The translations under genes and the position numbers were made by a program. Below are positions 6,849 to 21,850 of a stretch of DNA of 23,095 bases, in pieces (within the stretch, counting starts at the first letter, position 1; each line of letters starts with the position of its first letter). A model generated the notes under the pieces. The model worked only from the letters and a program-made list of their open reading frames with translations, made no database searches and had not been told where the DNA came from. The stretch is from positions 1-23,095 of the IMG/VR virus record IMGVR_UViG_3300001720_000028; one strand, written 5' to 3'. The stretch is from a virus.

Positions 6849-7733
6849 TTAAGGCTTAGATATCAACTCATCAGCAAAACGTCCTTGATAAGAATGCTCT
6901 CCCACGTGTACAATAGGGGCCTCTACAAAGGCATAGCATTTACCACCTATATCTTTCCATAACTTACAAAATGAAAAATCTTCTCCAAGATATGTTTTTG
7001 TTTCTGGGTCATGCAAACAATCAAAAAAATTCCACATATTTGGTTTATCTACATATTTACCATTTATTACTGTTTTTTGGACTATACTTTTGTCAGGGTA
7101 TTGTTTAATCATTTTTTCAAATACAGATCTTTTAATCAACATACAACCTGTAGGGCTATGTGTTACTTCCATAACTCCATTATCAAGCATAATACTTTTG
7201 GGGTCATCTACTTTCATAGGGTAGGTATTCAAATATTTTTGTAAATCTGACGCTTTTTTTACTTTACCCTCTTGAATTTTACTAAACAATTTATCCCACA
7301 TCATAGTTTTTAATGGATAGGGAACAGAAATCACTTCTTTATCCTTATCAATCATTTTAAATATAGAAGGAGAATGAAACCAAATATCTGAATCAATAAA
7401 AAGTAAATGAGTATGTTTACTTTCTAAAAAACCGGAAACACATAAATTTCTTCCTTGGGTTACTAAAGATGATTTTATTAAGTGAAATTGTATTTCCACA
7501 CCTCTATCAAAAGACATTTTTTGAAACTCAAGTAAAGCTTGAGCATAATGCATTGAAACATCACTGTGTACTGGGCTTGCGACAAATATTGAATAAGGTG
7601 CTTTTTCTTTTTCTTTTTTTGTTTTTTCCTTCCATAAAGGTTCTATTGCCTTTTCGTAAGGTGGTGGATCTACCTTAAACTCTTTAAGAGTTTGATAAGT
7701 ATCTTCATTTACAAATTCATTGTTTCCACTCAT
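6849..7733 (-). CDS. GT-A fold glycosyltransferase
   Basis: A 294-aa protein, ATG at 7733 with AAGGAG 8 nt upstream. After a charged N-terminal tail (about 1-46, Lys/Glu-rich) comes a Rossmann-like nucleotide-sugar domain: YSIFVASPVHSDVS (47-60), RNLCVSGFL (95-103) and LLFIDSDIWF (110-119), where DSD at 114-116 is the metal/nucleotide-binding DxD of GT-A enzymes. Toward the end, LGEDFSFC and the HVGEHSYQG block look like the acceptor-side acidic and His motifs of this superfamily. It should transfer a sugar from a nucleotide donor to an unknown acceptor. Its first 17 nt overlap the GT-B gene, so the two enzymes are made together. The acceptor (virion protein, DNA or host glycan) is unknown. 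Confidence 0.8.
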   Translation of the reverse strand: MSGNNEFVNEDTYQTLKEFKVDPPPYEKAIEPLWKEKTKKEKEKAPYSIFVASPVHSDVSMHYAQALLEFQKMSFDRGVEIQFHLIKSSLVTQGRNLCVSGFLESKHTHLLFIDSDIWFHSPSIFKMIDKDKEVISVPYPLKTMMWDKLFSKIQEGKVKKASDLQKYLNTYPMKVDDPKSIMLDNGVMEVTHSPTGCMLIKRSVFEKMIKQYPDKSIVQKTVINGKYVDKPNMWNFFDCLHDPETKTYLGEDFSFCKLWKDIGGKCYAFVEAPIVHVGEHSYQGRFADELISKP

Positions 7734-8649
7734 GCAAGGCTCCTTTCAAAAAGCTAGACCACTGTTGTCCCTTTTTATTCCAGTTGTAAAATTTTTTATA
7801 AAACTTTTGTTGTTCTTCTAAATGATCTTGAATAAAATCTTCATGCAAGTAATTAGCTGCAGTCTTAATAGCTTCCGCTGTGTCTAATGCCATTTGTTCA
7901 TAATTTTTATTATAATTTACATACACTGGCCATTCTGCACAAGTTTCATATAAAGCACCAAAATTATTTGTAATGACATGTACTCCAGAAGCTAAAGCCT
8001 CAAGAGCAGAAGCGCAGGAAGTTTCTTCAAATATTGAAGGATAAACAAACATATCATAATTTGGCATCATTTCTTTTATGTATTCGTTTGGCTTATAACC
8101 AATATAATTTACATTTGGTAATTTTTCTGCTTGTTCATACAAAGGTTTAAATTCATCCTCATGAATTTTACTAAAGTCACTTCCATAAACTTTAGTTGAT
8201 GAATAAACATCTAAAGTAATATTTGGGTCTTGTATTTCTTGCATAGCTCTTAATAATACATTTACTCCCCTCCAAGGAGTACAATGATGAATTAATTTTA
8301 TAGGATCACCTTTTTTATAAATTTTTCTTATAGGAAACTCTTCTATACCATTTTTAATGACTAATGATTTTTCTGTAGGAATATCAAAAAAATATCTAAA
8401 CTTTTCGTAATTCCAATGACTGTTAAAAATATACCAATCATATTCATGATGTCTTTCTTTATTTCTAAAAAACTCTTGTAGATTAGGTTGATCGTAAGAA
8501 TTTTTTTGCCAAAGTATGTTCATTTTGTTTGGGTCAATGGGTACCTTACCTGGTATAGAAGTACATATTTGTACTTGATCTAACAGATCTTTTGAAACAT
8601 GCTTTTCAAGCATTTCCATTTGTAGCTCTGTAGCACCTCTTGGTTTCAT
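7717..8649 (-). CDS. GT-B fold glycosyltransferase (GT4-like)
   Basis: A 310-aa protein with ATG at 8649, only 3 nt after the stop of the 65-aa gene, and little Shine-Dalgarno signal. The C-terminal half is a typical GT4 nucleotide-sugar domain: LIHHCTPWRGVNVLLRA (119-135), LPNVNYIGYKPNEY, MFVYPSIFEETSCASALEAL (200-219) with the E-x7-E pair at E209/E217, then ASGVHVITNNFGALYE. The N-terminal acceptor domain is short: only about 110 residues precede the donor domain, versus about 170-200 in typical GT4 enzymes. It contains DWYIFNSHWN, a usual inter-domain strand. It opens with MKPRGATELQ, reminiscent of the glycine-rich loop of the N-terminal Rossmann domain. Retaining sugar transfer is predicted; substrate unknown. 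Confidence 0.8.
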   Translation of the reverse strand: MKPRGATELQMEMLEKHVSKDLLDQVQICTSIPGKVPIDPNKMNILWQKNSYDQPNLQEFFRNKERHHEYDWYIFNSHWNYEKFRYFFDIPTEKSLVIKNGIEEFPIRKIYKKGDPIKLIHHCTPWRGVNVLLRAMQEIQDPNITLDVYSSTKVYGSDFSKIHEDEFKPLYEQAEKLPNVNYIGYKPNEYIKEMMPNYDMFVYPSIFEETSCASALEALASGVHVITNNFGALYETCAEWPVYVNYNKNYEQMALDTAEAIKTAANYLHEDFIQDHLEEQQKFYKKFYNWNKKGQQWSSFLKGALHEWKQ

Positions 8650-8652
8650 AAG

Positions 8653-8850
8653 TTATTTTTTGGTGTGTGCGTCTAACGTTACTCTTGTAACTTTCACTTC
8701 AAGATCTTGTCTAAAATCATCCACAGTAGTATCAGTATTGGGATCAGCAACATCAGCATCAAAATCAGCTTTAGTAGCATATATTTTTCCCGTTTTTTTA
8801 TGTTTAATTATTTCTTTAGCTTCTACTGGTATTTTTGGTAAATCATTCAT
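8653..8850 (-). CDS. Small conserved-type phage protein, 65 aa
   Basis: A 65-aa protein starting at 8850, with ATGA overlap with the stop of the cupin-like gene. It contains IIKHKKTGKIYATKADFDAD (14-33), then VADPNTDTTVDDFRQDLEVK (34-53) and a Lys-ending tail. From memory, this pattern (KHKKTGK.Y, then a DVADPNTDT block) recurs in marine tailed phages without known function; I could not check this. The protein is acidic in the middle with no membrane segment. It lies between two modification-type enzyme genes, but such proteins are more often found near virion genes, so it may be a structural leftover of the core module around which the enzyme genes were inserted. Confidence 0.6.
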   Translation of the reverse strand: MNDLPKIPVEAKEIIKHKKTGKIYATKADFDADVADPNTDTTVDDFRQDLEVKVTRVTLDAHTKK

Positions 8851-9395
8851 TGTATATTTATGGTTAAAGATAATTTATTTTCATTTTTACTTAAAACTTG
8901 ATGATATGTATTTTTTGGAATTATGCAAGTATCTTTAGGTTTAAGTATAAATTCTTTATTTTCTACCTTCCAAAGTGCTTCTCCATATATTTGTTTAACA
9001 ATTACATCGTAGTCATGCTTGTGGTAAGGAAAGCTAGGTATTTGCCCAGGTTTAGAAAAATAAAAATTTCCATTTATCATTAAACCTGATTTATTTGTTA
9101 AAGTTTTATTTAAACTTCTTAATTGGTTTGTTAAATCAAAAACATTAGAAATAATAGTTGTAAAGCCTAGATCATAAAATTTTTTCCATTCTTCATAATT
9201 TAAATAACCCTTTAAATTAAAAAAAAGTACAGATTCAAGCGCAGCAGTATTAGTTAAAATTTCAACCGATGCTTGTCCCCACGGATATCTATGGGGCCAT
9301 CTTTTTTCTATCTTTAATAAATCTAATAGATCTTGTTCCTTAAAATCTACGTCTGTTTTTTTAATTATTGTTTCTAGTTCTTGTAAAAAATTCAT
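8847..9395 (-). CDS. JmjC/cupin-like Fe(II) oxygenase-type protein
   Basis: A 182-aa protein, ATG at 9395 in a TAATG junction with the upstream 2OG-oxygenase-like gene. The C-terminal half has a cupin_8/JmjC-like core: FPYHKHDYDVIVKQIYGEAL (122-141), WKVENKEFILKPKDTCIIP (142-160), then KNTYHQV (161-167). Aligned to ribosomal-oxygenase/JmjC proteins, the metal ligands would be H125, H127 and H165; the usual acidic ligand (HxD) is replaced by His, giving a cupin-style HxH. The N-terminal half has a tryptophan-rich RWPHRYPWG stretch. Such proteins hydroxylate protein or small-molecule substrates with Fe(II) and 2-oxoglutarate, but with HxH the activity is uncertain. The partner genes suggest a modification cluster. 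Confidence 0.65.
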   Translation of the reverse strand: MNFLQELETIIKKTDVDFKEQDLLDLLKIEKRWPHRYPWGQASVEILTNTAALESVLFFNLKGYLNYEEWKKFYDLGFTTIISNVFDLTNQLRSLNKTLTNKSGLMINGNFYFSKPGQIPSFPYHKHDYDVIVKQIYGEALWKVENKEFILKPKDTCIIPKNTYHQVLSKNENKLSLTINIQ

Positions 9396-9997
9396 TAAAA
9401 TATAAATATTACTTGGTTTTTTCTAAATTTATTTTTAAATTTATTGTTATCATAAGCTAAGCCATGAATCAAATTTGATCTAAAAACTACCAATTTATTA
9501 AATTTAGATTTTATGTTGCATAGTAATTTAAAATTTTCTTTTTTTTGCCAAGGAGTAGAATGTTCTGTGCCTACATTATCATGCTCATTAATTTTTTCAT
9601 AAATGTTTGTGCCGTCGCAGGGATCTTCATTTAAATAAATTATACAATTATAAAAATTGTCATCTTGGTGTGGCCACCAATAATTGTTCTTATAATCTTC
9701 TTTTATATTTTGAAACTTTGTAAAGTTAGTTATGATGTCTCCTTTAATATTTTTACAATCTCTATTAAATAAATTATAAATTTTTTTTTCTGTTTCTTTA
9801 AATTCTTCAGCAACAACATGATGCTGACAGTCTAAAAAATCATGTGTATTCAAAGAATCTTTTTCTGACCATTTATGTATTACAGGTGCAACGGAATCAA
9901 AAAATGAGTTAACCTCATGTGGGTTTTTATAAAAATTATCCATTTCATAAAAATATTCATTAACCTTAAGTAAATTAAAGTTGTTTATTTCAAACAC
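9395..9997 (-). CDS. 2OG-Fe(II) oxygenase-like protein (DUF6445-like)
   Basis: A 200-aa protein starting with GTG at 9997 inside a TAGTG junction with the small basic gene. It shows the iron/2-oxoglutarate triad: NYWWPHQDDNFYNCIIYLNE (105-124) contains H110-x-D112; KLVVFRSNLIHGL (168-180) supplies H178; and FRKNQVIFIF at the C-terminus has an Arg (R192) where the 2-oxoglutarate carboxylate is normally bound. The order of strands (HxD, then about 65 residues, then H...R) matches DUF6445-type and related phage oxygenases. The N-terminal 90 residues resemble the leading helices (FYKNPHEVNSFF). Substrate unknown; the neighbouring JmjC-like and glycosyltransferase genes suggest modification of a protein or glycan. 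Confidence 0.72.
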   Translation of the reverse strand: MFEINNFNLLKVNEYFYEMDNFYKNPHEVNSFFDSVAPVIHKWSEKDSLNTHDFLDCQHHVVAEEFKETEKKIYNLFNRDCKNIKGDIITNFTKFQNIKEDYKNNYWWPHQDDNFYNCIIYLNEDPCDGTNIYEKINEHDNVGTEHSTPWQKKENFKLLCNIKSKFNKLVVFRSNLIHGLAYDNNKFKNKFRKNQVIFIF

Positions 9998-10638: not shown

Positions 10639-11192
10639 TACGAACTACCCATTGCATCTGAGCCACCAGCTCCAGTAGATCCTGGAGAAGGCTCACCTCC
10701 TCTTGAAGATCCTATTCCACCCCCATCAGAATTGATGTTAGGATTATTAGTAATAATTTGATTATTTAAACTTTGTTTTGCTAGACCTCTTTTTCCTACA
10801 GCTGTTCTAATTTTTGCATCTCTTCTGGCTTGAAGATACGAAGAAATTGTTTTTGATCTTCCAAATAAACTAGACTGAGCATCTGTGTTAAATTTAGCTA
10901 AAGCTCCAATCCCTAAACCAACAGGATTTAAAATTCCTAAACCAAATGGATTTCCAAATATTGCATTAGTTCCCATAGCATTACCTACAATTTCAGGTAA
11001 ACCTAATTTGCTTGCTACTGCCTGAGTAACTTGATTCCTAACTTGATTTTTTGCAATTGTTCCTAGATCTGGCATTTGAAAACCCCCATCTTGACCTTGC
11101 ATAGCTCCTGAACCCATAAGATTATTATTATATATTGGAGCAATTCCTTGGTTCATATCATCGTATAGTGGTGGTAAAAAATCTGGTTCCAT
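10638..11192 (-). CDS. Gly/Asn-rich hypothetical virion-region protein, 184 aa
   Basis: A 184-aa protein starting with ATG at 11192 (TAATG junction with the nozzle-like gene; GAGAGGAT ahead of it). N-terminal third is Pro/Gly/Asn/Met-rich. The middle (about 50-110) is a hydrophobic, glycine-rich stretch containing FGNPFGLGILNPVGLGIGAL, which may form a buried or membrane-active helix. Residues 115-150 are basic and helical (YLQARRDAKIRTAVGKRG). The C-terminal 40 residues are Gly/Ser-rich and probably disordered. I do not recognise a family. The junctions on both sides put it in one translational unit with the nozzle-like protein and the 54-aa protein, so a virion role is likely. Confidence 0.5.
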   Translation of the reverse strand: MEPDFLPPLYDDMNQGIAPIYNNNLMGSGAMQGQDGGFQMPDLGTIAKNQVRNQVTQAVASKLGLPEIVGNAMGTNAIFGNPFGLGILNPVGLGIGALAKFNTDAQSSLFGRSKTISSYLQARRDAKIRTAVGKRGLAKQSLNNQIITNNPNINSDGGGIGSSRGGEPSPGSTGAGGSDAMGSS

Positions 11193-13336
11193 TATCCTCT
11201 CATTCCATCGGGTTGTATATCTGCTCTAAAAGTACCATATCTCCAATTTTCATCAATAGCAGTATTGGCAACTCTTAAACTAGCAAATCTAGATCTTGCT
11301 CGAGTATCTACCTTATCAGTTGTGTTTGATATTGTAAATGGTCCTAAAGGAGAAGACGTTGCGGTGTCCGTTGGGTAATCTCGTAAATTAATTGTTACTT
11401 GTGCATTGCCTGTAATCAATTTAAAATCAGGTACAAACCTTCGCATACTCATAAATACTTGTCCTTCTCCTAAATCAAAATCACCTGATTGTATAAAAGC
11501 AGGTATAGCTGTTTTTGTTCCAAAAGCATCTACTTCATTATTACCTTCTTCGTGAGCATAATATGTTGAGGCTCCGTTAACTGCATTAACTCCTTGAATA
11601 GTTGGAAAGTTAGGTGTCCCTGTTGCAATAAATTCAGTGGCGTAAGGATTATCATATAAAGTTGCGTCTGCCCAAGTTGTTCTAGATAATGACCCAGTAG
11701 TCCAAGTTTGCTCAGAATAATTATAAGTTACTACTCTATCAATTAAACTTGAACCATTTTTAGGATAGAACCAACTTATTTCTTCGTAGAGATGATTTAA
11801 GGATGCATAAATTTGTTCACCATTGCTGTAACTTAATCCTAAATTATCTCCTTTTGATGTGAAGACAAAATCTTCAACTAAACAAGGAACAGATTTTACA
11901 GTTCCGTCATAAACAAAAAAACCGCCTGCTTGCCCCATCCACCATACAGCACCATTAATGTATTTAATGGAGTGTTGGCCTATTGCTCCACAATTACTTC
12001 CAACTTGTCTTATTGAAAAAGTAAATGGAGGACCAACAAATTGCATTACATAAGCGGATGTATCAGTAAGAATTAAAATATAATCTTTTCCTCTTACTGC
12101 ACCTACAATTTTTGTTCCAGAGTCTATTCTAAAAGTACCCGATGTATTAACTGAAGTAGGGCTGTAATCTGAAATATCTTCTTGATCCGAAAATCTTATA
12201 AACATTTTATCTTGAGTAAAACTATTACCAATAGTTGTTTCTGTGCCTAGCATAATTAAATGTCTATCTCTTTCAGAAACAATAGACATAACGGATGTAC
12301 TAGGGGCACCACTGACTACAGTAGCTCTTGTTGTTAAAGCTCCTCCAGTCGTGCTAATAGTATCCCATTGGAACGTCTTTCCATTTTTTATAGTTGCAAT
12401 TAATTTAGATCCAAAGTGATCTAATGACCAAGAAGCGGAATCTAAAGTTACCCCTCCTGTTAATGAAGCGACTCCCCACCCTAAATATGCTTCAACAGTA
12501 GCTCCTGTAGAATGAGCCGATCGAGTTCCAGCAACTCCTCTAGTAATACCAGTTAAATCATTAGTGGATATACCGGTGTAGCTTATAAATTCAGTACCTA
12601 TTTTAATTGTACCAGAAGTTGGAAAACCAACAACGGAAGATAATGTGATTGAAGTACCAGACCCTCCTGTACCAGCTGCATCATCTTGTAACAAACCATT
12701 CAATGTTGATATAACTCCAGATGAGCCTCCCCATCCTGATGTACCATATCCAAAACCAGAGGTTTGATTTAAAGGACCAACTTTGACGTAAGGATTAATT
12801 ACAGCAGAACCACTTGCCGCAACAGTAGTTCCAGCATTAGCAGCCATAGTAATTGTAAAAGTATCTTGCGATGGAACGGTTACTACTTGAAAAGTATTAG
12901 TCGTAAAATCTGCAGCTGAATAACCAGCTCCACTTGGCGGTGTTACAGAAGTAAATGTAAATAAATCTCCAGCAGATAAACCATGTGCAATTTTATTTAC
13001 TGTCACAGTTGGACTCGTATTGGCTGTTGTAAAAGTAGCTCCACTAATGGCGCTATCTAAAGGAGTAACATCATAAAAAGCTCCTTCAAAATAAATTACT
13101 AAAACTTTATTTGTCCCTAACGCTACGTATCTTCTACCATCTAAATCTGCCCAAACTAATTGTTCTCTGACTGCGCCTACAAGTGTTTTAAATGTAATTT
13201 GCTGCCATCCACCTATTTTTTCTGGTAGGCCATATCTAAATCTTACAAAATCTCCATCTGTCCACTGTCCTTCAGCACCAGTTTGAGTTACTTGCTTATT
13301 AAATCCAGGTCTTATCTGTACGTTTGTCAAAGGCAT
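11192..13336 (-). CDS. Tail nozzle / tail tubular protein B-like (P22 gp10, T7 gp12 type)
   Basis: A 714-aa protein, ATG at 13336. It opens with QIRPGFNKQVTQTGAEGQW and WTDGDFVRFRYGLPEKIGGW, an N-terminus I know from nozzle-like proteins of marine podoviruses. Next come WADLDGRRYVALGTNKVLVI and YFEGAFYDVTPL (83-93), the start of a beta-propeller-like fold. Residues about 99-181 (HGLSAGDLFTFT and FQVVTVPSQDTFTI) and about 225-287 (IGTEFISYTG...GITRG) look like two extra beta domains placed inside the propeller. The C-terminal half returns to the fold (DHFGSKLIATIKNGKTFQWD, IRFSDQEDISDYSP, VWWMGQAGGFFVYDG). The role would be closing the tail end and carrying fibres. No Shine-Dalgarno is visible before the start. 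Confidence 0.72.
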   Translation of the reverse strand: MPLTNVQIRPGFNKQVTQTGAEGQWTDGDFVRFRYGLPEKIGGWQQITFKTLVGAVREQLVWADLDGRRYVALGTNKVLVIYFEGAFYDVTPLDSAISGATFTTANTSPTVTVNKIAHGLSAGDLFTFTSVTPPSGAGYSAADFTTNTFQVVTVPSQDTFTITMAANAGTTVAASGSAVINPYVKVGPLNQTSGFGYGTSGWGGSSGVISTLNGLLQDDAAGTGGSGTSITLSSVVGFPTSGTIKIGTEFISYTGISTNDLTGITRGVAGTRSAHSTGATVEAYLGWGVASLTGGVTLDSASWSLDHFGSKLIATIKNGKTFQWDTISTTGGALTTRATVVSGAPSTSVMSIVSERDRHLIMLGTETTIGNSFTQDKMFIRFSDQEDISDYSPTSVNTSGTFRIDSGTKIVGAVRGKDYILILTDTSAYVMQFVGPPFTFSIRQVGSNCGAIGQHSIKYINGAVWWMGQAGGFFVYDGTVKSVPCLVEDFVFTSKGDNLGLSYSNGEQIYASLNHLYEEISWFYPKNGSSLIDRVVTYNYSEQTWTTGSLSRTTWADATLYDNPYATEFIATGTPNFPTIQGVNAVNGASTYYAHEEGNNEVDAFGTKTAIPAFIQSGDFDLGEGQVFMSMRRFVPDFKLITGNAQVTINLRDYPTDTATSSPLGPFTISNTTDKVDTRARSRFASLRVANTAIDENWRYGTFRADIQPDGMRG

Positions 13337-13382: not shown

Positions 13383-13607
13383 CTAAGAAGTTTTAATTTC
13401 CTCACCTGGAACTGTCGTTTTTTCAGCTAAATTTTTATCTTTTTCTACAATAGCTCTTTGTAAATTTATAACAACATTTGAAAGATTATTTATTAAATCT
13501 TTAGAAGCTGTGAACGTTAAAGAAACATGGCCTTTCTCATTTATAATTTTAACTTCTTCTTTATTAAAAGCTATTTCTAAATGTTTTTCTTTTAAATTAA
13601 AATTCAT
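13383..13607 (-). CDS. Small hypothetical protein, 74 aa
   Basis: A 74-aa protein, ATG at 13607 in an ATGA junction with the 184-aa oxygenase gene, with GAGGAAAC ahead of it. It begins MNFNLKEKHLEIAFNKEEVK and continues with a strand-rich middle (GHVSLTFTASKDLINNLSNV) and a charged helix ending GEEIKTS. It is lysine/glutamate-rich and soluble-looking, with no cysteine. I do not recognise a family. It is the last gene of the accessory oxygenase block and is followed by the 46-nt gap before the nozzle gene, so it closes this translational unit. Confidence 0.5.
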   Translation of the reverse strand: MNFNLKEKHLEIAFNKEEVKIINEKGHVSLTFTASKDLINNLSNVVINLQRAIVEKDKNLAEKTTVPGEEIKTS

Positions 13608-14158
13608 TGTTTCCTCGATCCTAAGTTAGGTCTTTTATCATATTTAAATTCTGTCATATCACCCTTAGCTAATACATAATGTAAAAATACATTATACGCA
13701 TAATCTCCTTCAAATTCTTTTCTTGAGTGTGGTAAGTAAGCACCAAAATATAAAACACCATCTCCTTCGTCAATTAAAATATCTTTGCCATCAATATTTA
13801 TGGGATATTTTCTATCAGTACCTACATTAATAGATATGGTAACTTCGCAGGATTGTCTATCAGTGTGTACTGGTAAGGATGAATATTTTGTGTATAGCCT
13901 CCAAAAAGAATATGTAGGTATCAATTCATGTTTTAAAGCTTTTTCTATAATTGGTTTTTTTGATATTAGCAATGTTTCCATTATTGTATCCCCATACTTT
14001 CTAGTTTCACCTAAACCTGTCTGACTCATATCACTAAATTCAAGATCAGAAAGATTATTGTTATGAAACATATCCATATAATTAAATAATAAATTACGTT
14101 CATCTTTTGTAAGAATATTTTTAATATAGATAACTAATGATTTATTTACTTCATCCAT
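13604..14158 (-). CDS. 2OG-Fe(II) oxygenase-like protein
   Basis: A 184-aa protein, ATG at 14158, overlapping the preceding oxygenase gene by 13 nt. Its second half carries the oxygenase core: TYSFWRLYTKYSSLPVHTDR (82-101) with H98-x-D100, then CEVTISINVGTDRKYPINID (104-123), GDGVLYFGAYLPHSRKEF (132-149) with H144, and YAYNVFLHYVL. The HxD-to-H spacing of 44 is short but normal for small phage oxygenases, where the distal Arg that binds 2-oxoglutarate may be R146. The N-terminal half is helical. Proteins like this, of unknown substrate, are frequent in marine T4-like and pelagic phages. It is paired with a second oxygenase directly upstream. Confidence 0.68.
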   Translation of the reverse strand: MDEVNKSLVIYIKNILTKDERNLLFNYMDMFHNNNLSDLEFSDMSQTGLGETRKYGDTIMETLLISKKPIIEKALKHELIPTYSFWRLYTKYSSLPVHTDRQSCEVTISINVGTDRKYPINIDGKDILIDEGDGVLYFGAYLPHSRKEFEGDYAYNVFLHYVLAKGDMTEFKYDKRPNLGSRKQ

Positions 14159-14727
14159 GATACAATACTATACCTTAATCCTTTTGTTACTGGTTTTACC
14201 GCATGTGGGTATAAATAATTACTAGGCCACATTATTAATTTACCAACTTCTGGTTTAATTATTTTAATAACTTTTTTTATACTTGGATCCCAAAATTCTA
14301 ATTCTCCTCCTTCATAATCATTATTTAATAAAATAATTGCAGATACTTCTCTAAAATATTTTTCACAGTTATCTACATGGGGTCTATAAAAACCTCCAAC
14401 TGAATATTTTAATAAGGTAAGCTCATCAATAGTTTTTAAGTTTATATCAAATTTATTTATATTTTTTGAATAATGCAAAACAGAATTTTTTAATAATTTA
14501 TACAAAAGATTTCTCCAATGTGCTTCAGTTCTACTAGTAAGATTAGCTTGGTGAAAAGCTCTTAATTCAACTGTTCTTATATCTTTGACTAATGAATCTT
14601 CTTCTGAGGAAGAACTAACGACTCTACCTGGAATAAATTCTAGATCTTTAAAAAATCTTAAAAATGCAGATACCTGTTGAGGGCTCATAAATTTTGGATG
14701 TTCCCAAATGTATTCTGTTATTTCCAT
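14146..14727 (-). CDS. Prolyl-4-hydroxylase-type 2OG-Fe(II) oxygenase
   Basis: The protein is 193 aa from the ATG at 14727. A TTG at 14742 in the same frame is possible but less likely. The core is that of P4H-like enzymes: LLKYSVGGFYRPHVDN (105-120) with H117-x-D119, SAIILLNNDYEGGELEFWD (129-147), GKLIMWPSNYLYPHAVKPV (162-180) with H175, and GLRYSIVSWMK at the end with the 2-oxoglutarate Arg (R185). All four key residues are present and well spaced, so this is the most convincing active oxygenase in the window. Its start overlaps the DUF6065-like gene by about 10 nt. The natural substrate is unknown; P4H family members hydroxylate proline or other peptide residues. Confidence 0.82.
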   Translation of the reverse strand: MEITEYIWEHPKFMSPQQVSAFLRFFKDLEFIPGRVVSSSSEEDSLVKDIRTVELRAFHQANLTSRTEAHWRNLLYKLLKNSVLHYSKNINKFDINLKTIDELTLLKYSVGGFYRPHVDNCEKYFREVSAIILLNNDYEGGELEFWDPSIKKVIKIIKPEVGKLIMWPSNYLYPHAVKPVTKGLRYSIVSWMK

Positions 14728-15452
14728 GTTTTTTTTGTCCAAAATTGTCTTTCATACCAAGATGTTAAATGTTTAGATGAATCTAGTATAGCTTTGTGTA
14801 TGTGATTTTTTTTAAATGGTTTTATTTTCATTTTCCAACTGTCAATCTTAAAAGGAAAAACACTAGCAATAGGTTCTCCTTTTCTTAAAATCCATGTACC
14901 TTCTTTCTTAAAGACACAGGGAAAATTTGTTTGTATAGGGTGGTTATAGTCTACTAATCCAGTAATTATTTCAAACCTATCTTCATTTCTATTTATAGGA
15001 GGTAAGTATAAAATACCATAACCTTTTGGAACTTTAACAACCCAAGGATTATTTAATTTATAAATCTTAAATCCTTTATTCTTTTGAGCATAAGGACAAG
15101 ACATACCGCCTATTTGTTCTAAACTATGCCACTCATCCCCCATATTCATATTGTAATCTCTAATATTAACGCTCTCACTAAACTGACTTACTTCAACCCA
15201 AGCATCTAAAGTATCTTTTGGATTAGTGACATTGAAATTTATTTTCTGATCTTTGGGATTTTTTATTATGTATCCAGCTGTAATACTATCTAAAAAAGGT
15301 TTACAGGCTTTTATTGTTCTTTTTAATTGATCTGATGGGTTTTTAACATCTTTATACCATTGAGGTATACTTAATTTTGCTGGAATAGGATGTATAGACT
15401 CATCTTCTATTAAATTTTCTTGAGCTTGAAATTCAATTATTTGTTCAAACAT
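14718..15452 (-). CDS. DUF6065-like protein of unknown function
   Basis: A 244-aa protein with ATG at 15452 and only A/T-rich sequence, no Shine-Dalgarno, in front. It contains IPQWYKDVKNPSDQLKRTIK (29-48), ACKPFLDSITAGYII (49-63), then a Cys-containing SLEQIGGMSCPYAQ (110-123), NPWVVKVPKGYGILYLPP (135-152) and EPIASVFPFK (193-202). This order (PxWYK, IKxCxPFLDxxTxGY, P.GYS/GxLxxxP, then a 'VxPF' strand) is one I know from DUF6065-type proteins common in marine phages; I could not verify the number. The fold is probably a beta-sandwich or cupin-like barrel. It lies directly before two oxygenase genes and may act with them. Function unknown. Confidence 0.6.
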   Translation of the reverse strand: MFEQIIEFQAQENLIEDESIHPIPAKLSIPQWYKDVKNPSDQLKRTIKACKPFLDSITAGYIIKNPKDQKINFNVTNPKDTLDAWVEVSQFSESVNIRDYNMNMGDEWHSLEQIGGMSCPYAQKNKGFKIYKLNNPWVVKVPKGYGILYLPPINRNEDRFEIITGLVDYNHPIQTNFPCVFKKEGTWILRKGEPIASVFPFKIDSWKMKIKPFKKNHIHKAILDSSKHLTSWYERQFWTKKTWK

Positions 15453-15495: not shown

Positions 15496-15945
15496 TTATT
15501 GTAAACCAAACTCCATACTTAGAGGAACGGGTAAAGAATTATTCTCTAGTGCATCTGTTAGATTATTTCCTGATATAGGCCAACTTGCCTCACTGAGAGA
15601 AAGCCATGTGTTATGAACAATATCTTTAGAAGTAGACCAAATTGCAGGAGAGTTTTCATTATTATTTATTGCTCTATCCATTCTTTCAACCATTTTACCT
15701 ATTTCAGAATAAGCATAAGCCTCAGTAAACTCCATTACTTCATTTGGAGTTGGGTGATCAATTACAGTTGGGTTTACAGGTTGTTTTTCTGTCAATTCTC
15801 TTTTACCTTTTCTAATACCATCATGATCAGAATCCGAGATTTCATGACATCCACAACCTTGATTTACATAATGATCCTTTGATTCATCATCATCACATAA
15901 CTTCATAAAATTATTTTCTTGATTTTTTATTATCCATTTAGACAT
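15496..15945 (-). CDS. Possible tail-fibre assembly/chaperone protein
   Basis: A 149-aa protein taken from ATG at 15945, with AGGAAC 7 nt upstream and one base after the fibre stop. An in-frame ATG 21 nt earlier (15966) would lie within the fibre gene and is not chosen. It begins MSKWIIKNQENNFMKLCDDD and has GCGC (residues 31-34), a charged region, a helical part (EVMEFTEAYAYSEIGKMVE) and a C-terminus with WLSLSEASWPISGN followed by NNSLPVPLSMEFGLQ. The start MSKW(I/L)IKN and the terminal W....WPI....L block resemble proteins coded right after tail fibres in marine phages. A role as fibre chaperone or fibre cap is inferred from adjacency; no family was confirmed. Confidence 0.52.
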   Translation of the reverse strand: MSKWIIKNQENNFMKLCDDDESKDHYVNQGCGCHEISDSDHDGIRKGKRELTEKQPVNPTVIDHPTPNEVMEFTEAYAYSEIGKMVERMDRAINNNENSPAIWSTSKDIVHNTWLSLSEASWPISGNNLTDALENNSLPVPLSMEFGLQ

Positions 15946-15946
15946 A

Positions 15947-17227
15947 TTAAGTTCCTGTGTTTTCAAAAATTATTAATACTCCAGCAGAACCCTGGTTACC
16001 TGATACGGCTTGTGAATTATTACCATTACCTTTAGATCCTGAAAATCCTATAATAGGGGCTTCCTGCCTGTTCTCGACAGTAAAACCAGATCTCATACCA
16101 TTCATATCTATATCAGCTCCTGAAAGGTTACCTGGATTTCCAGCTCCGCCGCCTCTTCCTTTTGCTCGTCCGCCATTTGCTCCATTAGCAGTTACATTAG
16201 AAATTGCAGTTGCACCTCCGGCATTACCAGGTGATCCAATTCCATTAGAACCTGGACCGCCATCTCCCTGTGAACCTACATTAAAAGGATATGCATCGCC
16301 TCCTGTAACAGAAATTTCTGCGAAACCTGTACCACCAATACCACCTGGTTGAGCTGGTTGGCTATTTGGAGCATTAGATCCACCTCCGCCTCCGCCTCCG
16401 CCACCGCATAAGTAAATTTGTGCTTTTGTAGCGTTAGGGTTTGCAGTATATGTTCCAGAAGTAGGGCCGCCATAAGATGCTGTAAAAAATTCAAAACTAC
16501 CTCCGCCCGCTGTTCCTGAAGACGCAGCAGTTAATCTTCCTTGAGCGTCAACAGTGATTGATGCTAGAGTATAAGAGGCTGCCGTTACAGCAGTGTTTGC
16601 CAATTTATCAGCAGTGACTGCATCATCAGCAATTTTTGCAGTAGTAACATTTGCGTCAGCAATTTTATCAGTCGTTACATTCGCATTTAAAATTCCTGCG
16701 GTCACAACTGCGTTGTTTGAAATTTGTGCAGCTCTTACTGCATCATCAGCAATTTTTGCATTCGTTACGGCATCATCTGCGATACCCGCAGTTCCAATCG
16801 ATCCACCTAAAGTATCAAGAGATATTTCTTTTAGATTTGTACCATCTGAGTAAGCAGCATAAATTTTTGCTTGATCTAATGTAAAACCACTTCCACTTGC
16901 AGTTTTAATTGTTAAATTTGTTGGATTAGTTAATCCAGTTGCATCAAAAATATAAAATTTTTCTATACTATCAGGTATAGTACAAATTGTACTTGCAGCT
17001 ATTGAAGCAGTTGCAAATTTGATAACCATATTTCTTGCATTAGAAATAGCTTTATCAGTCATAACAAGAGCTAAAGTTCCGCCACTTGAAAGTGTAACTT
17101 GTTCAAAACCTGCAATAGCTTGTTGAATTAAATTTAAATTGTTATTTGTGTTATCGCCCCATGTACCAGCATTTTCACCAGTAACCATTAGTTCGAGTTT
17201 TAAATCTGCAGAATAACTAGATGTCAT
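15947..17227 (-). CDS. Tail fibre with decapeptide repeats and glycine-rich tip domain
   Basis: A 426-aa protein, ATG at 17227 with AAGGAG 8 nt ahead. Residues 1-140 form a head domain, with TGENAGTWGDNTNNNLNLIQ (17-36) typical of phage fibre attachment regions. Residues 145-214 are seven exact 10-residue units (for example TNAKIADDAV, TTDKIADANV, TTAKIADDAV), then SITVDAQGRLTAASSG (223-238), a classic fibre motif before the tip. From 245 the protein is glycine-rich, with nine consecutive glycines at 275-283 after a Cys, many NGG/PGG/GGxGG turns, and a closing strand GVLIIFENTG. This resembles poly-glycine sandwich receptor-binding tips of phage adhesins. It should recognise the host surface. 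Attachment to the nozzle is inferred. Confidence 0.8.
   Translation of the reverse strand: MTSSYSADLKLELMVTGENAGTWGDNTNNNLNLIQQAIAGFEQVTLSSGGTLALVMTDKAISNARNMVIKFATASIAASTICTIPDSIEKFYIFDATGLTNPTNLTIKTASGSGFTLDQAKIYAAYSDGTNLKEISLDTLGGSIGTAGIADDAVTNAKIADDAVRAAQISNNAVVTAGILNANVTTDKIADANVTTAKIADDAVTADKLANTAVTAASYTLASITVDAQGRLTAASSGTAGGGSFEFFTASYGGPTSGTYTANPNATKAQIYLCGGGGGGGGGSNAPNSQPAQPGGIGGTGFAEISVTGGDAYPFNVGSQGDGGPGSNGIGSPGNAGGATAISNVTANGANGGRAKGRGGGAGNPGNLSGADIDMNGMRSGFTVENRQEAPIIGFSGSKGNGNNSQAVSGNQGSAGVLIIFENTGT
16586..16795 (-). repeat. Tandem decapeptide-coding repeat in the tail fibre
   Basis: Seven consecutive 30-nt units encode ten-residue repeats of the form xxAKIADDAV at fibre residues 145-214. 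At DNA level they are diverged except for one exact 24-nt pair (16617-16640 and 16737-16760, 120 nt apart). The regular ten-residue period suggests a triple-helical or coiled fibre shaft whose length can change by recombination or slippage. This is a coding repeat, not a CRISPR array. Confidence 0.8.
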
Positions 17228-17251: not shown

Positions 17252-17280
17252 ATTATACCTTTATCATGCAGCCAAATCAA
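17252..17280 (-). promoter_or_regulatory. Candidate sigma70-type promoter for the tail-fibre gene
   Basis: On the minus strand, TTGATT (17275-17280) is followed by a 17-nt spacer and TATAAT (17252-17257), a perfect -10 with a 4/6 -35 at the ideal distance. The transcript would start near 17245, just before the AAGGAG ribosome site and the ATG at 17227. The -35 lies within the end of the upstream gene. This is a sequence match only; the phage may rely on read-through or its own polymerase. Confidence 0.45.
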
Positions 17281-18253
17281 CCTCAGTCCAAACATTATTT
17301 ACCCCTGGATTTACTTCAGCCCAGGCTGTAATGTTAGGGCTACCCACTGACATAGTCATTTGTATTCCAGTTGGTTGAACTAAAGCATCGGCCACCACTG
17401 TTGTTTGTCCTGCAGCCGCTGTTATTTGTTGACCTGAAACACCTATTATTTGACCAGGTATTTCAGCATGTTGTCCAAGAGACATTGTAGCTTGTAAACC
17501 AGTCGGTGATTCAACAGTGGTTTGTATTAGTGAAAAAGTACCTAATGTTGAAGTTAATTGAATACCACTTACATCTACTGGAGTTTTTAAACCAGCTACA
17601 GTGGTACCTATTGAACCTGTTAATGATCCCGCACTTGTTACAGTAACGTTTGCATCGGCATCAAAAGTGGATGTTCCAATAGAAAAATCTAATTGGTCTT
17701 CAGAAGCTAAAACAAATATATCTTGGTCAATTTGAATTGAAAAAGATGGATTAGCAAATGTAGTTGAAATTTGTCCAGCACTTGTTACAGAAACAGTTAC
17801 GTCTGCTTTACCTATTGCAGAACCAATAGATGAAGTTAAAGTTTGTCCAGTTGCAATAACTGAAAAAGCTCCGCCCCAAGCAAGGTTACCCCAAGTTCTT
17901 CTACCCCAACCGATTCCAGTTAATTCAGATTCATCAACGGTAGCTGCACCAATACTTGAAGTTAATGCTGTTCCAGTTACAGGAACTCCTATACCAATAA
18001 CTGTGCTTCCTACAGCCATTGATTCAAGACTACCTGTTACTTGTACTAAGGCAGAAGTGCCACCTACAGTAGTACCTTGTGATGAAGCTATTTGTATTCC
18101 TGTTACGCTAACATCAGCATTAGCAGAAATAGTTACTGAGTTTTGTGATGTGGTTAATGAAAGACCTGATCCACCCCAATCATTTGAGCCCCAATTAGAT
18201 TGACCCCAATATTCAGAGCCTGGCGACTGAACTTTAACAGTAATATCAGCCAC
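17264..18253 (-). CDS. Repeat-built structural protein with WG motifs
   Basis: A 329-aa protein starting with GTG at 18253 behind a perfect AAGGAGG. Two blocks, YWGQSNWGSNDWGG (15-28) and GWGRRTWGNLAWGG (115-128), each have three WG steps. Between and after them come roughly ten degenerate beta units of about 24-32 residues, each ending in a motif like sxxG(S/T)x(l/i)... (for example PVTGTALTSSIGAAT, GQTLTSSIGSA, PTGLQATMSLGQ, PTGIQMTMSVGS). Only one acidic turn (SEDQLDF) interrupts them. There is no signal peptide. Similar Ser/Thr/Gly-rich repeat proteins in marine T4-like and podoviruses are virion proteins; this is recalled, not checked. Position next to the fibre gene supports a tail or head surface role. 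Confidence 0.6.
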   Translation of the reverse strand: MADITVKVQSPGSEYWGQSNWGSNDWGGSGLSLTTSQNSVTISANADVSVTGIQIASSQGTTVGGTSALVQVTGSLESMAVGSTVIGIGVPVTGTALTSSIGAATVDESELTGIGWGRRTWGNLAWGGAFSVIATGQTLTSSIGSAIGKADVTVSVTSAGQISTTFANPSFSIQIDQDIFVLASEDQLDFSIGTSTFDADANVTVTSAGSLTGSIGTTVAGLKTPVDVSGIQLTSTLGTFSLIQTTVESPTGLQATMSLGQHAEIPGQIIGVSGQQITAAAGQTTVVADALVQPTGIQMTMSVGSPNITAWAEVNPGVNNVWTEVDLAA

Positions 18254-18736: not shown

Positions 18737-19399
18737 TTAATAAGTTGTGTTAGGAGTAGGGCTTGGAACCTTAATTCTTGGCACTCCATCGCTATACTCC
18801 CCTCGTCTTCTTCTACCCATTTGTTGTAGGGCAAAATTTTGTACTTCTTCATTATACTTATCAAAATACAACTTGTACATATCCTGAGGTCCTTTTAAAT
18901 ATCTAAAAGCCTCTGTTAGCACTCCATGTAAAAGCATGGATTCCTGGTAAGTTGATATAAATGTATTATTTGTAGATGTAAATTGTGGTGGATCAGTAAT
19001 ATAATTAATTTGAACTTCATACGCTTGATCAGGAACGGGTGCTACAAGTAAATTAAAATCGTCCCAATTAGCCCAAAATTTAGGTAAAGCTTGAGCAGAA
19101 GCTCCGTTAAATTCAGAAATAAAACTAGTATCTCTTTTTTCTAAAAAAGTTCTAGTAGTTCCGTTTATGACCTGTAATGATCTAATAATAGTTAGATCAG
19201 AAGGTAAACTTAAATATCTATTTGCAGCGGTAAAATTAGAAGTAGCATATTTTCTTAAATCATCATAATCAACTTTACCTGCAATATCTAATTCAACAGA
19301 TCTAATAAAATCTTGAATAATAGCATCAGTTAAAACAGTGCTACCTACCTCTGTATAGTTTCTTACTTGTGTTAAAAAATTTGAATGTGTAACAGCCAT
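18737..19399 (-). CDS. Adaptor/tail tubular protein A-like protein, 220 aa
   Basis: A 220-aa protein, ATG at 19399 in a TAATG junction with the upstream gene. It begins MAVTHSNFLTQVRNYTEVGS with LTDAIIQDFIRSVELDIAGK (23-42), a helical start like head-tail connector adaptors (T7 gp11/P22 gp4 group). A strand part follows (RYLSLPSDLTIIRSLQVING), then KFWANWDDFNLLVAPVPDQA and YEVQINYITDPP, ending with a helix bundle (YQESMLLHGVLTEAFRYLKG). Compared with the 231-aa protein upstream it has the same general order (helices, strands, L..P/VAP strand, YY or YI strand, long C-terminal helices), so the two may be distant relatives sharing the neck. Role: likely neck or tail-tube adaptor, inferred. Confidence 0.6.
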   Translation of the reverse strand: MAVTHSNFLTQVRNYTEVGSTVLTDAIIQDFIRSVELDIAGKVDYDDLRKYATSNFTAANRYLSLPSDLTIIRSLQVINGTTRTFLEKRDTSFISEFNGASAQALPKFWANWDDFNLLVAPVPDQAYEVQINYITDPPQFTSTNNTFISTYQESMLLHGVLTEAFRYLKGPQDMYKLYFDKYNEEVQNFALQQMGRRRRGEYSDGVPRIKVPSPTPNTTY

Positions 19400-19859: not shown

Positions 19860-20555
19860 TTAAATTCCTGTAGGATAAAATGATTGTGGTGTTATATATG
19901 TAGATGTTCTTTGACCATCTTCATCAAGTGCTCTTTTTAATTCATCTTCATAAATAAGTTTGTTTTGTTGTACTCTTTCTGGTGCTTTTTTAATTGATAA
20001 ATAATACGCTAAACCTGCACACATGCATGGTAAAAATCTATAAACTACATCTGAATCGTTTGTGTAATTTCCTGCATCTTCAATTCTTTTTATTACATAA
20101 TATTTCAAAACTGTATACGTACTTAAATTAGGTGCTTGATATAAATAAATTTTTGGAGTTTTTTCTCTAGATACATAATACTGAGAGGGTTGTCCAAGAG
20201 CTAACTTATTAGGCAAAGCAGCATATGCTGATCTGTCTATTTTCGTTAATGAAACATCTTGAGTATTTATTGTGTCTGCTCCAGCAGCTGTCGAGGAAAC
20301 AAATGCTTCTAGTACATCACTAACATCAGCGGTTACTGAGTACTCAGCTTGCCCACTGACTAAAGCATTTTCGTGTAGAGCAACTTTCCATAAATGAATT
20401 CCTCTATTTGCCCATTCAGCAAATAATAAATCTAAACTTCTTCTAGCAGATCTTAAATCATATCCTTGATTAGTAGAAAGACCACATCTTTCATAACCCT
20501 CATCAATTACTTCATCAATACTAAGATTGAAACTTGTAGTTCCAGACGTAGTCAT
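19860..20555 (-). CDS. Head-tail adaptor (P22 gp4/T7 gp11-like) protein
   Basis: A 231-aa protein, ATG at 20555 with AAGGAG 10 nt ahead, both inside the end of the upstream small gene. Key parts: FNLSIDEVIDEGYERCGLST (9-28), LRSARRSLDLLFAEWANRGI (34-53), HLWKVALHENALVSGQAEYS (54-73), then PKIYLYQAPNLSTYTVLKYY and the helical VVYRFLPCMCAGLAYYLSIK (165-184). The pattern of a helical N-terminus with LDLLFAEWANRG, beta strands and a C-terminal helix (LAYYLS.K.APERV) is characteristic of tail accessory/adaptor proteins of the P22 gp4 type in marine podoviruses. It would form the ring under the portal. Confidence in the family is fair; the ring arrangement is inference. Confidence 0.72.
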   Translation of the reverse strand: MTTSGTTSFNLSIDEVIDEGYERCGLSTNQGYDLRSARRSLDLLFAEWANRGIHLWKVALHENALVSGQAEYSVTADVSDVLEAFVSSTAAGADTINTQDVSLTKIDRSAYAALPNKLALGQPSQYYVSREKTPKIYLYQAPNLSTYTVLKYYVIKRIEDAGNYTNDSDVVYRFLPCMCAGLAYYLSIKKAPERVQQNKLIYEDELKRALDEDGQRTSTYITPQSFYPTGI

Positions 20556-20695: not shown

Positions 20696-20819
20696 GTTCA
20701 CTGTCTTTCATAAGCCTGCCGTTGGGCATATAATGGTATCCTGAAGGTGCCTTTTTCTTTCTTGCTCCCCTAAGTTTGCCATCTATTTGTTGTTGAATTT
20801 GAGATCTACCTATTGCCAT
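20646..20819 (-). CDS. Small basic protein, 57 aa, overlapping both neighbours
   Basis: ATG at 20819 to TAG at 20646-20648. Translation begins MAIGRSQIQQQIDGKLRGAR, then KKKAPSGYHYMPNGRLMKDS, then EHARKKPNSKKPKVFKI. Its start overlaps the end of the oxygenase-like gene by 14 nt, and its last 50 nt overlap the 47-aa gene in another frame. The central GYHYMPxGxLMKDSEH pattern recurs, as I recall, in small marine phage proteins near head or neck genes. It is Lys/Arg-rich, with no membrane segment. The long overlap is unusual but both products have recognisable patterns, so I keep both. Confidence 0.65.
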   Translation of the reverse strand: MAIGRSQIQQQIDGKLRGARKKKAPSGYHYMPNGRLMKDSEHARKKPNSKKPKVFKI

Positions 20820-21345
20820 TTATTTTTTCTATTTTAATATTACCTGCAATTGTAACAGAATTATTATTTTTGCAAACCATATGTGTAAGAAAACTAGGAA
20901 ATAAGATCATTTGGCCTTGCTTACAGGATGGTTTAAAATCTTTCTGACAAATATCATCAATTATTGTTTCATCATAATAGCTTTCAAGTAAAGTAAAAGA
21001 TGGGTTAATAAAAACAGTATTTGAGTCTTTAATTTTCTTATATATTACAAAAGAAATGTGCTTTCCTGGATGTTCATGTTTTTCTTGAAAATCATTTTCA
21101 AGATATTGATTTTCCCATATAGAGTCCATAATAACTTTAAAAGGTGGTTTTATTGTGGGTAATAACGTTTTAACAATTACTTCTAAAAGATATTTTTCTG
21201 AATTTTCTTCAAGTTTATTATTATAATCGTGAGAACTTAAAGTTTCTGATAGAAACGTTTTTGAAAATTTTAAATTATTTAATTTTATTTTATCTAAATC
21301 AATATTAGTTATCCAAAAAGGAACTGAAAACAGATCTAACTTCAT
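20806..21345 (-). CDS. 2OG-Fe(II) oxygenase-superfamily protein (Oxy_5-like)
   Basis: A 179-aa protein with ATG at 21345 and little Shine-Dalgarno signal. It shows the small phage oxygenase form: SIWENQYLENDFQEKHEHPG (75-94) with H90-x-H92, FVIYKKIKDSN (99-109), TVFINPSF, GQMILFPSFLTHMV (144-157) with H155, and a closing TIAGNIKIEK strand. The order WxN..., HxH..., lilFPs.l.H.V, .iagN is that of the PF13759-like group (2OG-FeII_Oxy_5), where HxH or HxD occurs. The residue usually supplying the 2-oxoglutarate Arg just before the last strand is not Arg here (NNSVTIAGN), so activity is doubtful. Its place between the endolysin and the small adaptor-side genes is odd for an enzyme. Confidence 0.65.
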   Translation of the reverse strand: MKLDLFSVPFWITNIDLDKIKLNNLKFSKTFLSETLSSHDYNNKLEENSEKYLLEVIVKTLLPTIKPPFKVIMDSIWENQYLENDFQEKHEHPGKHISFVIYKKIKDSNTVFINPSFTLLESYYDETIIDDICQKDFKPSCKQGQMILFPSFLTHMVCKNNNSVTIAGNIKIEKINGNR

Positions 21346-21349
21346 TAAA

Positions 21350-21850
21350 TTAGCTAATTACTTTTCCATCTTTCCACTCCATATCAGGTAAGCCTTGAGT
21401 ATAGTTTTTCCCATCAAAGGTCAATACTTGTTTTCTGTTTGAATCTGACTCGTGATAGCTTATATGGATCCAGCCTCCTGCGGGATCGTCTTTGTCAAAG
21501 TACTCCATAATCAGCTGATCAAAATCTACGTTATTTTGTAACCAGTAGGCTACCTTAATGTTGGGTACACCAAATATTTCTAGGTCGACCGCCTGGCCCA
21601 GTGCGTGCTGCGATGTCTTTTTGCTGCCGATCGCTTCACACAACGCCTCGCTCCGATATCCGCTGGTGACTGTCACAGGTTTGTCGAAGTGTGCCCGTAA
21701 GGGCTCAAGGACTTCATAACATAGATCACCTAAATTTTTTATTTCTACTGATCCAGGTGTGTTATCAATTCCCTTACGTTGAGCCGTCATCGAATTGGTC
21801 ATCTCTCTTAAAGTAAAATGTTTGCTTAATTGAAATGGTTTTTTTTTCAT
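21350..21850 (-). CDS. M15-family peptidoglycan peptidase (likely endolysin)
   Basis: A 166-aa protein, ATG at 21850 with AGGAC 8 nt ahead. The zinc site of M15 D,D- or L,D-peptidases is present: TSGYRSEAL (62-70), then SQHALGQAVDLE (80-91) with H82 and D89, and GGWIHISYHE (125-134) with H129 as the third ligand. The N-terminus LSKHFTLREMTNS (8-20) is the usual opening of phage M15 proteins. It should cut peptide cross-bridges of the cell wall at lysis. Codons and GC content change inside the gene: about 59% G+C over 21581-21710 (hand count) against clearly lower values around it. There is no signal peptide, so export would need a holin, which I cannot identify with certainty. Confidence 0.85.
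   Translation of the reverse strand: MKKKPFQLSKHFTLREMTNSMTAQRKGIDNTPGSVEIKNLGDLCYEVLEPLRAHFDKPVTVTSGYRSEALCEAIGSKKTSQHALGQAVDLEIFGVPNIKVAYWLQNNVDFDQLIMEYFDKDDPAGGWIHISYHESDSNRKQVLTFDGKNYTQGLPDMEWKDGKVIS

Follow-up and report, generated by a model that had tools for sequence, protein, structure and literature searches.

Little is known of what SAR11 phages, which rank with the most abundant viruses, recognise on their hosts. A gene of the ocean virus fragment IMGVR_UViG_3300001720_000028 raises the question of which part of such a phage may grip the host, and of how this part changes between related viruses. In an earlier note on this DNA, hereafter the window (the whole stretch of 23,095 bases that was analysed), the gene was described as a tail fibre with a perfect ten-residue repeat as shaft and a tip like the polyglycine sandwich adhesins of T-even-like phages, with the difference that both are joined in one chain.

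The virus fragment and its relatives

The window shares gene content with the SAR11 phage HTVC023P, which has homologues of the N-terminal part of the fibre, of phrog644, of two glycosyltransferases (73% and 65%) and of the genes at 11192 and 10127. As judged from these genes, the fragment belongs to an HTVC023P-type pelagiphage, a SAR11 podovirus, and since they match those of a SAR11 phage the host is, by relatedness alone, very probably SAR11. Genomes of the HTVC023P type have been described, including their many 2OG-Fe(II) oxygenases (PMC9599517). Among the other genes of the window, the adjoining glycosyltransferase-type genes at 7717-8649 and 6849-7733 (PF00534; weak Anp1) match HTVC023P gp77-gp78 in order, those at 18737-19399 and 19860-20555 lie in one neck module and each have a hit to PF24175, the SU10 adaptor family, and the gene at 21350-21850 (Peptidase M15, PF08291) likely encodes a lysin.

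Relatives of the fibre were collected by a scan of viral contigs, in which 580 of the 599 stretches listed encode one, in such a way that at least 580 relatives exist. The best 80 loci were kept, and these gave 67 distinct full-length one-chain proteins that, together with the window protein, form the family of 68 analysed below.

The fibre gene, its N-terminal domain and its shaft

The fibre is read on the minus strand from 17227 to 15947, with an ATG at 17227 preceded by AAGGAG; the plus-strand frame at the same positions is full of stops and was rejected. The gene and its parts are the following, with the supporting evidence in brackets:

15947..17227, minus strand: tail fibre gene, 426 aa (open reading frame; nearest isolate protein HTVC023P gp69; matches to PHROG tail fibre families)
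16808..17227, minus strand: N-terminal domain, residues 1-140 (87% median pairwise identity in the 68 proteins; many invariant residues)
16586..16795, minus strand: shaft of seven decapeptides, residues 145-214 (lag-10 identity count; shaft lengths of the relatives)
16520..16552, minus strand: VDAQGRLTAAS linker, residues 226-236 (several invariant or near-invariant residues; drop in DNA identity; exchange breakpoint)
15950..16504, minus strand: glycine-rich tip, residues 242-426 (Pam3 profile and Foldseek matches; PF21722 in relatives; conservation of glycine columns)

The nearest isolate protein, HTVC023P gp69, is annotated as a 'putative tail protein' and is 70% identical over residues 1-209. 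Its match covers the N-terminal domain, which presumably is the end attached to the virion.

The shaft consists of seven blocks (GTAGIADDAV TNAKIADDAV RAAQISNNAV VTAGILNANV TTDKIADANV TTAKIADDAV TADKLANTAV), all exactly ten residues long as had been described before, but not identical in sequence, so that the repeat is perfect in length only. The number of identities at lag 10 is 32, a value that none of 10,000 shuffles reaches (mean 7.8, maximum 19), and the consensus of the register across the family is T-T-A-K-I-A-D-D-A-V. The median pairwise identity of the shaft is 66% in the 68 proteins, and in 63 of them its length is 74/75, 84/85 or 94/95 residues. Such steps of about ten residues suggest that entire decapeptides are gained or lost. 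Three relatives match PF19264 (DUF5907) in the shaft, and a literature search on the decapeptide repeat yielded no useful paper. In the shafts of L039, L046, L047, L053, L056 and L074, a common insert (TTTxNRVLGAxxAGTIGEVQV) stands in place of decapeptides.

Directly upstream of the fibre, the gene at 17264-18253 encodes a repetitive protein of 329 aa with WG-rich motifs, moderately variable (median pairwise identity 51%) and without match in Pfam and PHROG searches. A divergent WG-rich protein is also encoded upstream of the fibre of L072.

Sequence of the glycine-rich tip

The C-terminal half has the elements ascribed to it earlier, namely the linker at 226-236, nine consecutive glycines at 275-283 and a terminal hydrophobic strand (GVLIIFENTGT). 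Phase variation through poly-G slippage was rejected, as the glycine run is written in a mixture of GGN codons and no stretch of G in the gene exceeds 4 nt. Across the 68 tips the longest glycine run goes from 2 to 9, so the nine of the window are at the high end of the family.

The tip is hypervariable, as the earlier note had expected: its median pairwise identity is 36% among the window protein and its 67 metagenomic relatives, against 87% for residues 1-140. This variation is unevenly distributed. Glycine makes up 20-34% of the tips, and on average the consensus residue reaches a frequency of 0.61 in columns where it is glycine and of 0.37 in all others, a pattern in which the glycines read as a scaffold that stays fixed while the loops vary. 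At lag 3, pairs of glycines are strongly enriched (z 27.8), and PG occurs in preference to GP; both would be expected of glycine helices in extended form and of turns. With Pfam, PF21722 (Gly_rich_2) is matched at E<=0.01 by 27 of 62 members (best 3e-8); the window protein reaches 19.0 bits, under the curated cut-off of 24.3. A tblastn search of the tip against annotated phages gave no match. The reading of the gene as a tail fibre in which a conserved attachment end, a repetitive shaft and a hypervariable glycine-rich tip follow one another is well supported, and it is the tip that most likely grips the host, acting presumably as the receptor-binding domain.

Predicted fold of the tip

The fibre was modelled as a single chain with AlphaFold2, with 62 sequences in the alignment (mean pLDDT 71, pTM 0.48). 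Confidence is high in the tip, with pLDDT values of 86-97 over most of 251-370 and of 83-95 over 401-426, and lower blocks near 381-400, whereas the N-terminal region and the shaft are less confident (block pLDDT 34-80). The modelled strands lie between 222-274, 300-317 and 417-423, the last one within the hydrophobic C-terminus, and the model aligns overall to the Pam3 fibre 7ypx.

This fibre, of a cyanophage, was the best solved match in Foldseek (E 3e-7, TM 0.51 on the target, rmsd 7.6), followed by the Bxb1 tail tip and by the glycine-rich domains of ALK and LTK. A profile search against the PDB pointed to the same protein (7yfw/7ypx, E 1e-5), and hhalign aligned the tip to Pam3 gp24 with 93.9% over 65 columns; the immunoglobulin chains also retrieved by the profile search (E 0.2-0.8) were taken as chance matches. 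Among viral models, 230 matched the fold at E<=0.001, often under the name 'glycine-rich domain-containing protein', so that a tip of this predicted fold seems to be common among viruses. It is the TNF-like fold of the Pam3 type that the modelled tip looks like, and not the beta-helix of gp38 and its attachment helices. The polyglycine sandwich proposed earlier is thus supported as regards a packed glycine-rich domain, but the close likeness to T-even gp38 is not.

A variable island behind the linker

The tip lies at the opening of a variable island of about 3.2 kb (13337 to about 16520). The genes that follow the fibre, up to the conserved flank, are these:

15496..15945, minus strand: ORF of 149 aa, candidate tip-specific chaperone (start codon 1 nt past the fibre stop)
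14718..15452, minus strand: phrog_7084 protein of unknown function, in the island (phrog_7084, E 1e-37; found in 49/64 relatives)
14146..14742, minus strand: 2OG-Fe(II) oxygenase, in the island (PF13640, E 4e-19; HxD...H...R motif)
13604..14158, minus strand: second oxygenase-like gene, in the island (HTD at 98, HxD only; homologue in 64/64 relatives)
13383..13607, minus strand: ORF of 74 aa, far end of the island (open reading frame; DNA identity with relatives stays low as far as about 13337)
11192..13336, minus strand: virion structural protein, conserved island flank (phrog_3287, E 1e-83)

When the window was compared with 78 relatives, DNA identity fell from 0.72 to 0.58 just past the linker, stayed at 0.52-0.65 inside the island and recovered to 0.76 where the 11192 gene begins, a gene that in most relatives is about 70-90% identical in its best segment. 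The order of the downstream genes is largely constant, with an ORF of 140-168 aa, usually phrog_7084 and then the two oxygenase-like genes, the first of which, like the second, has a homologue in all 64 relatives with enough sequence. Median pairwise identities are 0.20 for the ORF next to the fibre, 0.48 for phrog_7084, and 0.35 and 0.46 for the oxygenase-like genes, against 0.86 for phrog644.

With the backbone controlled, the tip, the candidate chaperone and phrog_7084 diverge together: the partial Mantel rho is 0.31 (p 0.001) between tip and candidate chaperone, 0.51 (p 0.001) between candidate chaperone and phrog_7084, and 0.31 (p 0.007) between tip and phrog_7084. The values between tip and oxygenases are lower (rho 0.11-0.13, p about 0.1), hence the oxygenases are tied less tightly to the tip than the other two genes.

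A clear exchange in block was found between two relatives, L063 and L072. Their DNA identity is about 0.55 upstream of the fibre, which is near random, 0.80-0.83 in the N-terminal part and 0.65 in the shaft, and it rises at about the linker to 0.88-0.99, which it keeps across the island as far as the shared DNA extends, in such a way that the breakpoint is at or near VDAQGRLTAAS. The converse was seen in the pairs L039/L047, L022/L049 and L060/L061, related in the N-terminal part and near random from the shaft or tip onward. In addition, pairs of relatives whose phrog644 is 97-98% identical have tips that are only 24-43% identical.

Beyond this family, related repeats and the same linker occur in the phages P-GSP1 and KBS-P-1A, where the C-terminal parts that come next are quite different ones. 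As the linker precedes unlike C-terminal parts across phages, it is a general joint that carries differing tips.

The candidate chaperone

In 74 of 75 relatives, the ORF of 140-168 aa begins between -1 and +13 nt relative to the stop codon of the fibre; in the exception, L003, the same protein is present with its start called differently. The protein of the window was modelled with confidence (pLDDT 87) as a small alpha/beta N-terminal part followed by a helical hairpin. No convincing chaperone relative was found by PDB profile search, Foldseek, PHROGs, Pfam or hhalign against Pam3 gp25, and thus membership of the Tfa/gp25 family is not claimed. Two relatives of the protein matched the 'tail fiber assembly protein' family phrog_188, with an E value of 0.035 at best, and the L060 member gave no match against annotated phages. 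Its position, coupling to the fibre, near-constant presence and co-divergence with the tip indicate that it is probably the chaperone of the tip.

The oxygenase-like genes

The protein encoded at 14146-14742 is a 2OG-Fe(II) oxygenase both by its Pfam score (PF13640, 69.7 bits versus a cut-off of 27) and by its motif (HVD at 122, H180, R190). The second oxygenase-like gene has no match in a Pfam search, and its match in HTVC023P sits among genes annotated as 2OG-Fe(II) oxygenase and ferrochelatase. About five oxygenase-like genes were counted in the fragment, two of them in the island; those outside it are at 20806-21345 (PF13759), 9395-9997 (HxD only) and 8847-9395 (JmjC/cupin-type).

One could imagine that the island oxygenases hydroxylate the tip, for instance at X-Pro-Gly, in such a way that an adhesin would be exchanged with its own chaperone and modifying enzymes as a kit for post-translational modification, an idea that we regard as speculative and hardly probable. 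The enrichment of PG in the tips (293 versus 227 expected) was rejected as proof of it, since the depletion of GP is just as large and PG is accounted for by turns that lie between the glycine helices. Also against this argument, HTVC023P gp70 has few prolines, though HTVC023P carries 2OG genes.

Discussion

In our opinion, these data are probably best explained by a one-chain fibre of a SAR11 podovirus with a host-binding tip that is exchanged, in an island, with the genes downstream of it. The conserved N-terminal domain would fix the fibre, presumably a trimer, to the virion, and the decapeptides would make a short shaft whose length changes by steps of ten residues. The C-terminal glycine-rich and, as predicted, TNF-like domain would be the host-binding tip, with its conserved glycines packed into a lattice and its contact loops made of the variable residues in between. 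Tip, 149-aa gene, phrog_7084 and the two oxygenase-like genes would constitute an island replaceable as a unit by recombination, bounded by the linker on one side and by the structural gene at 11192-13336 on the other, both conserved. Swapping it could be of advantage to the phage, as its receptor specificity would change while the virion end of the fibre is kept.

Host pressure could also have made the tip vary by point mutation and drift alone, with no exchange of cassettes, the downstream genes being simply fast-evolving. That tips mostly match one another at only about 36% and cannot be traced to a donor, that co-divergence between tip and oxygenases is weak, and that a single clear recent transfer appeared among the pairs examined would all fit such a process, which nevertheless seems unlikely to us given the high identity of the L063/L072 island next to a shaft at 0.65 and near-random upstream DNA, and the divergent tips of pairs with almost identical phrog644.

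As to the nature of the tip itself, a gp38-type polyglycine sandwich adhesin of T-even phages fused to its fibre would account for the alternation of glycine-rich motifs with hypervariable segments; helix 3 of the S16 gp38 adhesin, described in PMC6851490, also has a run of eight glycines, and the Syn9 Gp38 model appears at rank 50 among the viral models (BFVD), so that a distant link is possible. We find this origin quite improbable, having in mind that the 50 best PDB matches in Foldseek include Pam3 gp24 and ALK/LTK and no S16 gp38 entry, and that no separate attachment domain exists, because the tip is covalently joined to the shaft. A last possibility is a non-adhesive structural protein, a decoration or neck fibre with the glycine-rich part only as a cap. 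The gene indeed sits among neck and adaptor-like genes of the SU10 family, but hypervariability confined to the C-terminal domain, a well-defined predicted tip fold in common with a known fibre tip and the annotation of the HTVC023P homologue as a tail protein make this role very doubtful.

The fibre tip offers a testable domain for host recognition by SAR11 phages, VDAQGRLTAAS a defined joint at which tips appear to be exchanged, and the island a list of genes that share one variable block with the tip. That two oxygenase-like genes are constantly present in it leads to a concrete hypothesis on why marine phages keep many of them beside their tail genes.

Comparison with known systems

Pam3 gp24 forms trimers in which an alpha-helical shaft is combined with a TNF-like and a glycine-rich domain; the hypervariable distal loops of the latter, rich in glycine, have been proposed to bind the host, and gp25 is the chaperone of gp24 (PMC9608196), encoded by the gene next to it. 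The fibre of the window resembles the gp24/gp25 pair (7ypx, 7yfw) in its single chain, in its glycine-rich and, as predicted, TNF-like C-terminal part and in the gene of similar size directly after it. It differs from Pam3 in that gp24 has an alpha-helical shaft, without decapeptides and without the VDAQGRLTAAS linker, and in that the gene next to the fibre here has no detectable relation to gp25. Since gp24, the best solved match, is one chain, a glycine-rich tip on a one-chain fibre was already known. The same layout is found in UOF77890.1 of MW202496 (Myoviridae sp. ctvy9321), with a similar N-terminal start, a linker of the type NTAVTAGSYT...VDAQGRLTAAS and a glycine-rich tip, though with another shaft, a spring-water source and no oxygenase annotated in the stretch shown. 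With the many viral models of like fold, these cases do not allow the one-chain arrangement to be called unusual.

Adhesins of the S16 gp38 type (6F45; PMC6851490) share the distal glycine-rich motifs with hypervariable segments, but gp38 is a separate beta-helical protein that caps the gp37 trimer. A related gene neighbourhood is that of HTVC023P, whose gp69 has the same N-terminal domain and a decapeptide-type shaft. By contrast, gp69 ends at 224 aa without a tip and is followed by gp70, a separate glycine-rich protein of 308 aa, with no ORF of 140-168 aa directly after gp69; with this splitting of fibre and glycine-rich protein, the one-chain layout does not hold for every phage. What comes next after the fibre homologue in HTVC027P is a collar-type protein.

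The island also has precedents. In Table 1 of a 2014 study, variable host-recognition islands of marine phages are given with tail fibres, fibre assembly proteins, Gp38 and Fe(II) oxygenases (PMC3909814). Those metaviromic islands are, like the one described here, host-recognition regions that differ between close relatives and hold similar kinds of genes, while this cassette, its boundaries and the linker joint are not defined in that part of the study. The sharing of fibres and chaperones between distant phages is likewise known (PMC10579305). The fibre is therefore of a known design, its tip appears from these comparisons to be exchanged between viruses together with downstream genes, and, as far as the searched literature shows, the mapping of the island boundaries and of the linker joint is the new detail.
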